This document shows, piece by piece, positions 40,847 through 63,946 of a stretch of DNA of 64,000 nt. Location: positions 1-64,000 of the forward strand of contig NZ_JAHHUL010000010.1 in NCBI RefSeq assembly GCF_019008365.1. Reading direction: 5' to 3'. The notes beneath the pieces are model-generated. The model saw only the letters and a program-made list of their open reading frames with translations, was not told the DNA's origin and did not search any database. A program made the translations under genes and the position numbers. Numbering within the stretch: the first letter of the stretch is position 1; each line of letters starts with the position of its first letter. Source of the DNA: Phosphitispora fastidiosa. GTDB lineage: Bacteria > Bacillota > Thermincolia > Thermincolales > UBA2595.

Positions 40847-41114
40847 GGCAGGTGAGGTGTTGTACAAGATTTTCCTTGCACTGCCGCCGTTATGAGTCTT
40901 AACTGCGAATCACCGGCAACAAGGCGGGGAGTCCCCGCATGTCCGAAGATGGCGAAAGCCGCCGGGAAGTTTTGGCTCGCCAAAACGAGAGGCGGCCATC
41001 CTTCAAATTAAACCCAATGAGCCATCGAGTTCGGGGACGCTGCCTTGTTGCCGGGGGAGGCAGTTTAGACTCATAGGCGGCAGTGCGGAAAATCAGTACA
41101 ACACCTCACCTGCC
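40847..41114. repeat. Long palindromic interspersed element, copy 1
   Basis: The 268-bp sequence folds back on itself almost completely. GGCAGGTGAGGTGTTGTAC (40847-40865) is complementary to the other end (41096-41114), and pairing continues through TGCACTGCCGCC, TATGAGTCT and CCGGCAACAAGG blocks. The centre holds smaller hairpins (GCGGGGAGTCCCCGC at 40924-40938, TTTTGGCTCGCCAAAA at 40970-40985). Left and right arms differ at fixed places (AAGATTTTCCTTGCA against TGATTTTCCGCA). The same asymmetry appears in the other copies. No protein is encoded. It accounts for most of the 40794-41201 gap. Confidence 0.85.
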
Positions 41115-54777: not shown

Positions 54778-54780
54778 AAA

Positions 54781-54836
54781 CAGAGAATAAAAGAACCGGT
54801 GTGGCATAAATGCTGCACCGGTTCTTTTATTCTCTG
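54781..54836. terminator. Long bidirectional terminator
   Basis: Perfect 21-bp arms (54781-54801 and 54816-54836), starting CAGAGAATAAAAGAACCGGT, flank a 14-base loop. It ends the rubrerythrin transcript and overlaps the stop codon of the convergent antitoxin gene by 10 bp. Confidence 0.88.
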
Positions 54837-55102
54837 TTATCATCAAGGCCTACCTTTAATTGCGAAAATACTTCTTCGTGCGTATAGCGCTTTTCTGTAG
54901 ATTTTGCTTCCAGTTCAGCTTCCTTTAGTTTAAAGTGGACTTCATCTTTAAATAACTTGCGCTCATAGGCTTCAATGCTCAAAACAACCATGTCACCATA
55001 ACCATTTTTGGTTAAAAAAACTGGCTCTGATGTTTCGTGCACAATCTTTGAAATTTCCGCAAAATTATTACGCAAATCGGAAACCGGTCTAATGTGTGGC
55101 AT
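54827..55102 (-). CDS. Phd/YefM-family antitoxin, no adjacent toxin
   Basis: The 91-residue product has the Phd/YefM N-terminal DNA-binding pattern (IRPVSDLRNNFAEISKIVHE, PVFLTKNGYGDMVVLS, then EAYERK) and a charged C-terminal tail that normally wraps a RelE/ParE or Doc toxin. ATG 55102 has AAGAGGTG upstream. Downstream lies only the terminator and rubrerythrin, upstream the pilus operon, so no toxin gene is next to it. It is either a solitary antitoxin or regulator, or the remnant of a lost pair. Confidence 0.85.
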   Translation of the reverse strand: MPHIRPVSDLRNNFAEISKIVHETSEPVFLTKNGYGDMVVLSIEAYERKLFKDEVHFKLKEAELEAKSTEKRYTHEEVFSQLKVGLDDNRE

Positions 55103-60567: not shown

Positions 60568-62490
60568 ATGCTGTTGAAGTGGAAAACGCTGTTAGCAAAG
60601 CAGGAGCGGGGCACAATTACAATTTACCTGGTGATTGTATTTACAGCAATTCTTTTCTTTACCGGACTGTTTGTGGACCTGGCCAGAATCAAAGCGGCCC
60701 AGAACCACCTGCGGAGAATTGCCGACAGCTCGGCGCGTTCCGTGATGGCAGATTATCATCCGGGACTGAAGAGCGGGTATATGTTGTTCGGAGCCAACCG
60801 GTCTGACTTTGCGGCGGATTTCAAAAAATATGTCACCGCAAATCTTCCGGACAGTACCCGGAGAGATTTCCGGCTGCTGGATTTGAGGTATGAAGAGGGG
60901 AATATTTATCTGACCCGTCCCGTCAGCCGGAAAGAGGTGCTCAGACAGCAGATCCTTGAGGCCATGAAGTACCGGGCCCCGGTTGATATTACCAGGGAGC
61001 TTATTGATAAGTTTCGCCAGATAGGGGAGATGGCCAGGTTTTTTGATGTCAATAATGAAAAAAGAAAGAGTTACTCCAAGATAAATGAAAAGCTGACAGG
61101 CATCCATGAGAATAACCTGAAAATTAAAGGCTATAAAAATGAGCTGCGGGAGAATAAAACAGAACTGATTAATGTCAAAAGGGAAATAACCCGGCTCCGG
61201 AACTCGGAATCCGGGGGCGATAAGGTCAGGCTGGGTGAACTGATGCAGAGGAAAACCCGACTGGAAGGTAAAATGACCGCAAGCCGCTCGGCGATTGCGG
61301 GGGAAGTAGACAAGACTGAGATTGCCAGGAACGAAATCGAGCAGGAGATCAAAAAGCTGGAGGAATTCCCCGATGCGGAGGTTTACCGGAACTACGGTCC
61401 TGCCGGAGGCGGGACTGCGGTCACCGGTGAGGACATGGTCAACCGGGGCCTGGATACATTTCTGGACCGGCTTTCCCTAGACCTGCAGGGGATTGATACC
61501 AATGTGACGCAGACCAGGGAAGCCCTGAAATCAGAGGCCCGTACCCAGGAAGCAGATGACCGTGTTTTTGAGAAAATGGGTATTGAGGCGGCGACAAAGG
61601 CTTATGAAAGAATCTCAGCAGCCGTGAAAACCCCGGTTTCCCCGGAAACGGGCGGGACAGCCCAACACGCGGAGCAGCTGCGGGATGAAATCGAGCAGTA
61701 CGAATCAGGAACAGATGAGATTGAGGCGCTCTTTTCTCCTGAAGTTATCGATGGGGATGTGAAAAGGTTTGCGGACAGGTATGGTTCCAGGGCAGATTCC
61801 ATCTCAGGCCTTTTCCGGAAGATTTTCGGCATTATTAATGTAGGGGAGCGGTTAACCGAGCTCAGGGATGAAATTTATATCAATGAGTATGTGCTGACCT
61901 ATTTTTCGTTTCTCACCTCCCCGCCCAAGGGGTCCCCCCCTTACCCTTACCGGAACACCGAAGCCGAATACATCTGCTATGGAACCGGGGCGCCCATAGC
62001 CCTGGCGGTAAGTGAGCTTTACTTTACCAGGTTTGCCCTGGACAGTGCGGCATATTTCGCCTTCAGCAAGGCGCCAGCCGACCTGTTGGCCAGGACGGTT
62101 TATTCCCTCATCATGGGAGCCCTTGAAGCTGCGGCAGATACATATAAGCTCTTAATTGCACAGGAAAGTGTCCCGGTTGCTTCCATGTTCCCTGATAATC
62201 CGCTGGAAAGAACCCCGCCGCTGAGCTATAAGGACCACCTGAGGCTGTTTATGCTGCTGCATTCCGCTGAAGAGGCAAAGCTGGGCCGAATCGACGAACT
62301 CGTCAGGGAAAGGTCCGGTATTGATACCGGGGCACTGCCGACCCTGGCTGATGGCTATATAACGGTCTCGGTGAAAATGTGGTTTCTGCCCCTGGCGGGG
62401 TTCGGCAATCTGAAGGCAGGGCCGTTTGATACTGAGATCAGGGAGGGCAGGTGTTATATCACCAAAGAGGTTGAGTTTGGATACCAGTAG
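60568..62490 (+). CDS. TadG-like/DUF5702-like pilus-locus protein
   Basis: This 640-residue protein has an N-terminal membrane helix after RGTITIYLVIVFTAILFFTG, as in TadG and DUF5702 proteins (VDLARIKAAQNHLRRIADS). A long coiled coil occupies about 145-260 (ENKTELINVKREITRLRN). The C-terminal half (about 430-640) is mixed helical and includes a likely second membrane-associated segment. TadG-like proteins are minor, surface-linked components of the Tad machinery. AGGAGTGG precedes ATG 60568. The palindromic element copy 2 starts directly at its stop codon. Confidence 0.75.
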   Translation: MLLKWKTLLAKQERGTITIYLVIVFTAILFFTGLFVDLARIKAAQNHLRRIADSSARSVMADYHPGLKSGYMLFGANRSDFAADFKKYVTANLPDSTRRDFRLLDLRYEEGNIYLTRPVSRKEVLRQQILEAMKYRAPVDITRELIDKFRQIGEMARFFDVNNEKRKSYSKINEKLTGIHENNLKIKGYKNELRENKTELINVKREITRLRNSESGGDKVRLGELMQRKTRLEGKMTASRSAIAGEVDKTEIARNEIEQEIKKLEEFPDAEVYRNYGPAGGGTAVTGEDMVNRGLDTFLDRLSLDLQGIDTNVTQTREALKSEARTQEADDRVFEKMGIEAATKAYERISAAVKTPVSPETGGTAQHAEQLRDEIEQYESGTDEIEALFSPEVIDGDVKRFADRYGSRADSISGLFRKIFGIINVGERLTELRDEIYINEYVLTYFSFLTSPPKGSPPYPYRNTEAEYICYGTGAPIALAVSELYFTRFALDSAAYFAFSKAPADLLARTVYSLIMGALEAAADTYKLLIAQESVPVASMFPDNPLERTPPLSYKDHLRLFMLLHSAEEAKLGRIDELVRERSGIDTGALPTLADGYITVSVKMWFLPLAGFGNLKAGPFDTEIREGRCYITKEVEFGYQ

Positions 62491-62751
62491 GCTTTCGGAA
62501 ATGACCGGGAATGGAATATGGTGAGCTGTTGTACTGATTTTCCGCAGCGCCGCCGGAGAATTCTAACCTTGTTCCTGGTGAAGCCACGGACTAAACCGCC
62601 AATTCGCCATCCGTGGCTCAGTGGCGGCTCCGCCATCCATGGCTCCGGTCCGTGGCTTCACTTAGCGGAACTGCGGTAACCTTTCTCACGGCGGCACTGC
62701 AAGGAAAATCTTATACAACAGCTCACCACATACCACGGTCATTTCCGAAGC
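62491..62751. repeat. Long palindromic interspersed element, copy 2
   Basis: This 261-bp element begins right after the TAG of the TadG-like gene. GCTTTCGGAAATGACCG at 62491 is complementary to the end at 62751, and GGTGAGCTGTTGTAC (62520-62534) to the block at 62712-62726. The centre contains perfect 14-bp arms GTGAAGCCACGGAC (62578) and GTCCGTGGCTTCAC (62648). Compared with copy 1 the arm with TGATTTTCCGCA comes first, so the element is in the opposite orientation. It fills most of the 62491-62801 gap. Confidence 0.85.
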
Positions 62752-62801
62752 CACCTGGAGGGAAAACACAAAGAGATTTAAGTGACAGGAGCAGAGAAAA
62801 A

Positions 62802-63419: not shown

Positions 63420-63946
63420 CCGCCTTGTTCACGGCAAAGACATTGATATTGGCAGTTACCCTGGCAGCAGCGCTGTTTTTTGATATCAGGTACTGCCGGA
63501 TAAAAAACGCTGTTACTTTTCCGGCAGCGGCTGCCGGTATTCTGGTTAATTTTGCGGAGCGCGGCTTCCCGGGAGCACTGCTGGCTGTAAAAGGCTGGGT
63601 TCTTCCGGTATTGGCGCTGTTTATCCTTTACTACATAAATGTTATGGGAGCTGGGGATATCAAGCTCTTTGCCGCTATAGGGGCGATTATGGGCCTTCCC
63701 TTTGTAATGTACTGTTTTCTTTTTTCTGTATATATCGGAGGTGTCATAGCGTGCTGGCTGTTAATCCGCAGGGGACAGTTTCGGGACAGGATGGGGAGGC
63801 TTTATGGTTATGCGAAAGCCGTATTGTTTTCAGGACGGCTGTTCCCCTACTGTGTGAAGGGGGATAATGAGTCGAAGTTTATTTTTACGGCAGCTATTGT
63901 TCCGGGGACTGTTGTTAACTGGGTTTTGGTGTATGTTTGGCTCTAG
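63416..63946 (+). CDS. tadV: Prepilin peptidase (TadV/CpaA, peptidase A24)
   Basis: This 176-residue polytopic membrane protein has the aspartyl-protease signature of the A24 family: FFDIRYCRIKN with the first Asp near residue 23 and MGAGDIKLFAAIGA (GxGD) near residue 78. There are four or five hydrophobic segments. It cleaves the leader of Flp-type prepilins and pseudopilins, which are encoded in the same operon. It lacks the N-methyltransferase domain, as usual for TadV. Confidence 0.92.
   Translation: MTALFTAKTLILAVTLAAALFFDIRYCRIKNAVTFPAAAAGILVNFAERGFPGALLAVKGWVLPVLALFILYYINVMGAGDIKLFAAIGAIMGLPFVMYCFLFSVYIGGVIACWLLIRRGQFRDRMGRLYGYAKAVLFSGRLFPYCVKGDNESKFIFTAAIVPGTVVNWVLVYVWL

Follow-up and report, generated by a model that had tools for sequence, protein, structure and literature searches.

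A dispersed family of long palindromic elements with two interchangeable structured tips in a Thermincolaceae genome

The palindromes of the window and their family

The window, i.e. the whole 64,000-nucleotide stretch that was analysed (positions 1 to 64,000 of contig NZ_JAHHUL010000010.1), belongs to a 4.09-Mb Thermincolaceae MAG (G000). It carries three copies of one palindromic element, two of which (copies 2 and 3) are housed in a Tad-type pilus cluster (TadE/G-like, TadE, prepilin peptidase, FHA and kinase). The features are the following.

40847..41114, + strand: copy 1, bearing a type I tip between inner arms at 40851-40875 and 41087-41110; most of the outer arms is lost
40920..41047, + strand: type I tip of copy 1, a conserved structured motif without an Rfam family (alignment, covariation, covariance model)
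62490..62754, - strand: copy 2, a full element with outer arms and a type II tip; the upstream TAG (62488-62490) abuts the element end
62564..62678, - strand: tip of copy 2, resembling TwoAYGGAY: a pair of hairpins whose loops read CATGGATG and CACGGATG; 35.2 bits with RF01731
63938..64000, - strand: copy 3, core-deleted arms, running beyond the window to about contig position 64030

Copies 1 and 2 have opposite orientations, as stated in a preliminary description of this DNA, and copy 3 is oriented like copy 2. The same description took all three copies for nearly full-length palindromes of about 265 bp. Copies 1 and 2 are indeed such palindromes, with an RNA MFE of -172 kcal/mol against a shuffle mean of -99 (z -13.4) and of -161 kcal/mol against -88 (z -14.4), respectively. 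All three belong to one family, but the size does not hold for it: most copies include outer arms (GGCTCCGGAAATGACCG..) and reach about 330 bp, copy 1 being short through the loss of most of its outer arms and copy 3 having its core deleted. What remains of copy 3 is an inner hairpin of 61 nt, whose end, at contig position 64029, falls outside the window. A de novo inverted duplication was dropped as the source of the inverted flank of copy 3, this sequence being a recurrent one-sided module (AAACAAAA..hairpin..GAGACTTA) found at other copies. A separate palindrome, unrelated to the hairpin family, lies at 54779-54838 around ACCGGTGTGGCAT (29-bp arms, 93% complementary) and is possibly a terminator.

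The arm pattern GGTGAGNTNTTGTA..GATTTTCC has five exact matches in the window, where none is expected, and 43 in the whole genome, where the reversed control has none. Allowing up to three mismatches, 53 left arms (..CAAGATTTTCC) and 48 right arms (..CCGATTTTCCGCA) were retrieved genome-wide, and the arm asymmetry reported earlier is thus real. Pairing of these arms gave 48 elements, to which about ten shortened or weakly matching ones are added, for a family total of about 58 sites; the further copies for which a genome-wide search had been proposed therefore exist. The elements are dispersed, intergenic and non-coding and have terminal inverted repeats, as expected of MITEs.

The two arms carry a fixed asymmetry, CAAGATTTTCCTTGCA versus CCGATTTTCCGCA. 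With the CAAGATTTTCC arm on the left, the layout is (GTT)GGCTCCGGAAATGACCG..ATAT / GGTGAGNTNTTGTACAAGATTTTCCTTGCACTGCCGCCG / tip / CGGCGGCAGTGCGGAAAATCGGTACAA..CTCACC / ATAT..CGGTCATTTCCGGAGCC, and the arm differences amount to a fixed internal loop (CAA versus CC) and a 2-nt bulge (TT). In G004, which represents another genus of the same family, the arms have changed to TTTTATAAGGGTTTCCCTTGCGC versus TTTTAACGGGTTTCCCGCTCGC and the same kind of asymmetry is retained (AAG..TT side versus CG side). About one third of the copies have an extra module, a small terminator-like hairpin (TTCAAGGCTTTGCGCCTTGGACTTTTT), on the left side only. The internal deletions of shortened copies spare the arms.

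Two unrelated tips on common arms

The arms bear either of two unrelated tips, type I (as in copy 1) or type II (as in copy 2). The centres do differ, as previously noted, but this is explained by two distinct tip families together with internal deletions.

Type I elements measure 259-263 nt, and those at four loci (L007, L150, L151 and L159) gave no Rfam match up to E=1. Across 40 aligned type I tips (six genomes), 17 of the 32 pairs show compensatory double changes, compared with 6.5 in shuffles (0/500) and with at most eight when the structure is slid, and the internal loops are nearly invariant. The covariation check suggested for the palindromes thus gave a strong signal for this tip. A covariance model of it finds matches in six of 398 genomes of the phylum, all from the same order. 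Two near-identical type I copies lie 1.3 kb apart (L006 and L002, at G000 C9:45724 and 47006), which suggests local homogenisation. Another type I element (L087) was found on a short contig binned as Desulfoscipio, which looks like misbinned Thermincolaceae.

Type II elements measure 206-208 nt, some being longer, and their tip matches the core of Rfam family RF01731 (TwoAYGGAY). Three copies of the genome exceed the curated cut-off of 43 bits (53.0, 46.6 and 46.3 bits), whereas copy 2 of the window falls under it (35.2 bits) while possessing the two AYGGAY hairpins (loops CATGGATG and CACGGATG). In the first loop, GGA is kept in nearly all type II copies, and the stems vary among copies. The repeat was initially not recognised as a named one; this no longer stands for the type II tip, which is catalogued, albeit with no known function. 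TwoAYGGAY was first reported by Weinberg (2010; PMC2864571), and Gardner and Eldai proposed from motif matching that it is a CsrA-binding RNA (PMC4333381). Type II elements share with TwoAYGGAY a long stem that bears two neighbouring hairpins, each with an AYGGAY loop; however, Rfam models the tip alone (168 positions, Cis-reg), and in the present family this tip is interchangeable with another on a longer, dispersed palindrome. The whole repeat was not found described in the open-access literature searched.

RF01731 is detected in 15 of 61 relatives and in none of 14 control genomes, and reaches 10-37 copies per genome in five of the genomes (G009, G004, G053, G036 and G039), which include several other genera. 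At every locus examined in these genomes, the palindrome extends for 15 to 90 pairs outside the Rfam model. Far outside this genus too, TwoAYGGAY therefore forms the tip of long, dispersed palindromes. A full type II element also occurs on a contig binned as Desulfobacteraceae (SURF_67; L078, 1418-1800), which may reflect misbinning or transfer.

Orthologous sites, position and strand

The genomes compared are draft metagenome assemblies. The sister genome G002 (BL5_bin.1) is about 90% identical to the source genome, with about 1.2 Mb covered (about 30% of G002). Among 29 orthologous sites, 17 have the same tip in G002 (often shortened), five a swapped tip, two a truncated element and five are empty. 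The tip is thus of the other type at five of the 22 shared sites, within flanks that are about 90% identical. The site of copy 2 is one that has been exchanged (type II here, a type I remnant in G002 and a type II remnant in G001). At another site (L118), a site-specific arm variant, GGTGATGTG, is kept in both genomes under different tips, and so the exchange lies inside the arms. At the G002 site (L270, C15) corresponding to L144-8411, a long, partly masked (TATCTCTT)n-type tandem array adjoins the element.

A search for empty sites had been recommended, and species-specific ones were found: besides the five in G002, the site of copy 1, which has remnants in G001 and G002, lacks the element in G003 and G005, and that of copy 3 lacks it in G001. 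Of the five G002 sites, L006 is a scar left by a deletion. Three empty sites show clean junctions without duplication. At L144-1619 the element sits between the TA and the A of a TAA stop codon and contributes the G that makes a new TAG. Target-site duplications were not found (direct-repeat score p=0.37 over 36 sites); a single site, L003, has a possible decayed flanking repeat of 9-10 bp. The direction of change, gain or loss, is read from outgroups that lack the element and is elsewhere presumed.

At orthologous sites the stems diverge by 4.5%, compared with mostly 5-13% for the flanks. Compensatory change in situ between orthologous copies is near chance outside one site, which accounts for eight of the 11 double changes, and we rejected it as proof of selection at each site; because it is so weak, per-site conservation of the pairing is unsupported.

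Gene orientations were taken from mechanical ORF calls. The element usually lies between co-directional genes and starts at or just past the upstream stop codon: in 25 of the 29 copies whose upstream gene stops no more than 160 nt from the inner core, the stop is at most 50 nt away from it, which places the stop in the outer arm or about 20 nt or less from the end of the element. The two copies of the pilus operon were earlier said to start directly at a stop codon. This is accurate for copy 2, which abuts its TAG in what is the general position, but not for copy 3, in whose arm the TAG of the prepilin peptidase gene (63944-63946) falls. The position can be explained by selection, since only the short gap between a stop and the next RBS tolerates inserts.

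The orientation is alike in 32 of 39 copies between co-directional genes (p=7e-5), the canonical strand of these being antisense to the flanking operon. The bias was not found for elements in other lineages and was rejected as a general property. The opposite orientation would presumably turn the terminator-like module toward the downstream gene. On the canonical strand, G.T mispairs outnumber A.C mispairs (67:39 cells for type I and 86:37 for type II; by columns, 40:29 with p=0.23 and 47:24 with p=0.009, these p-values being optimistic because the copies are related). The excess favours selection on the hairpin of one strand, as RNA or single-stranded DNA.

Nature of the elements

The preliminary description left the choice between a selected structure and a miniature mobile element. 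The roughly 58 sites, the empty sites and the covariation of the type I tip speak for one or both, but selection at the individual site loses ground with the weak in situ compensation. We consider it likely that the family consists of non-autonomous, dispersed mobile hairpins of MITE/ERIC-like kind that spread by insertion and tip exchange. The long arms with their fixed, strand-marking mispairs would fold as a hairpin in one strand, which an inserting enzyme may recognise through these mispairs. Insertion would target short gaps between genes that are mostly co-directional, just past the upstream stop. The arms would then persist at the site while the tip is replaced through recombination between dispersed copies (type I to type II/TwoAYGGAY or the reverse), putatively by gene conversion through the arms, or else shrinks by deletion. 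Where they are transcribed, the hairpins could affect the operon mRNA.

By description, the elements resemble the ERIC, BOX and Correia MITEs in being intergenic, non-coding, imperfect palindromes with tens of copies and a likely transcribed context; they differ in their exchangeable tips, in that no target-site duplication was seen and in that no parent insertion sequence was found. ERIC is 127 bp long and the element here exceeds twice this length. Integron attC sites conserve a structure with bulges over sequence, and the hairpins may be compared with them in this structural respect. With REP/RAYT and IS200/IS605-type hairpins, they share strand-marking mispairs in the structure and the lack of an evident target duplication, but REPs are only 20-40 bp long (PMC3733652) and the Y1 transposase family is absent from two element-rich genomes, G001 and G004. 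A Y1 transposase is thus unsupported as the mobiliser, not being consistently present where the elements are. We found no full-size element that carries a transposase; the unpaired arms that we inspected were all truncated copies, and phage, plasmid and viral collections gave no match.

The elements could instead be primarily functional RNAs, the canonical strand being transcribed and the tips binding protein (for type II, CsrA at the GGA loops), as sponges or local regulators. The type II loops hold GGA while their closing stems vary, G.T exceeds A.C on the canonical strand and CsrA binding has already been proposed for TwoAYGGAY (Gardner and Eldai, PMC4333381). The source genome encodes CsrA, as do 13 of the 15 RF01731-positive genomes, and the two without it have the lowest completeness (75% and 63%); yet CsrA is also common in genomes free of RF01731, so that this co-occurrence is compatible but uninformative. 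A putative CsrA-sponge role for type II, proposed from motif matching, is compatible with the presence of CsrA. However, the canonical strand is antisense to the operon in most co-directional cases, the five swapped tips and several lost ones imply that no site needs a given tip, and the same signature is expected from a factor that reads single-stranded DNA. Overall, we find a primarily RNA function doubtful. A role on the sense strand, where the hairpin would be an intercistronic RNase III or stability/attenuation signal with a selected orientation, would fit the location directly past stop codons and ahead of the next gene, the 32:7 orientation and the precedents of ERIC and Correia elements (PMC10969869). 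But the conserved loops then appear as complements and orthologous copies decay to remnants. Moreover, the long hairpin is nearly symmetric with respect to orientation, and the bias hence needs another cause, for example the one-sided terminator-like hairpin present at many copies. Such a role is unlikely to be the primary one.

Finally, the host flanks past the arms are mutually inverted more often than mismatched pairs of flanks (0/5000 permutations). At L095 and about nine other copies they are inverted copies of each other (19/19 bases at L095); template switching and hairpin targets are candidate causes. This would be expected of neutral palindromes that arise and grow through template switching during replication, with no transposition. 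Yet arms, asymmetry and tips are homologous across about 58 unrelated sites, which requires dispersal, and the fixed mispairs would not survive template switching; as an origin of the family this process is very improbable.

These findings give TwoAYGGAY, an orphan RNA motif since 2010, a genomic identity: it tips a long palindromic repeat present in many copies. Added to this are a second, previously undescribed structured tip with strong covariation and the exchange of tips at fixed sites between sister species. More tentatively, TwoAYGGAY and type I may be swappable tip cassettes of one class of mobile hairpin, recognised through its mispairs in one folded strand of DNA or RNA, in which case TwoAYGGAY might be what is seen of a widespread element by which protein-binding loops are spread through Clostridia-like genomes. 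These hairpins would form a class of mobile element, and it can now be tested whether TwoAYGGAY acts as a regulator (a CsrA sponge) or belongs to such an element.
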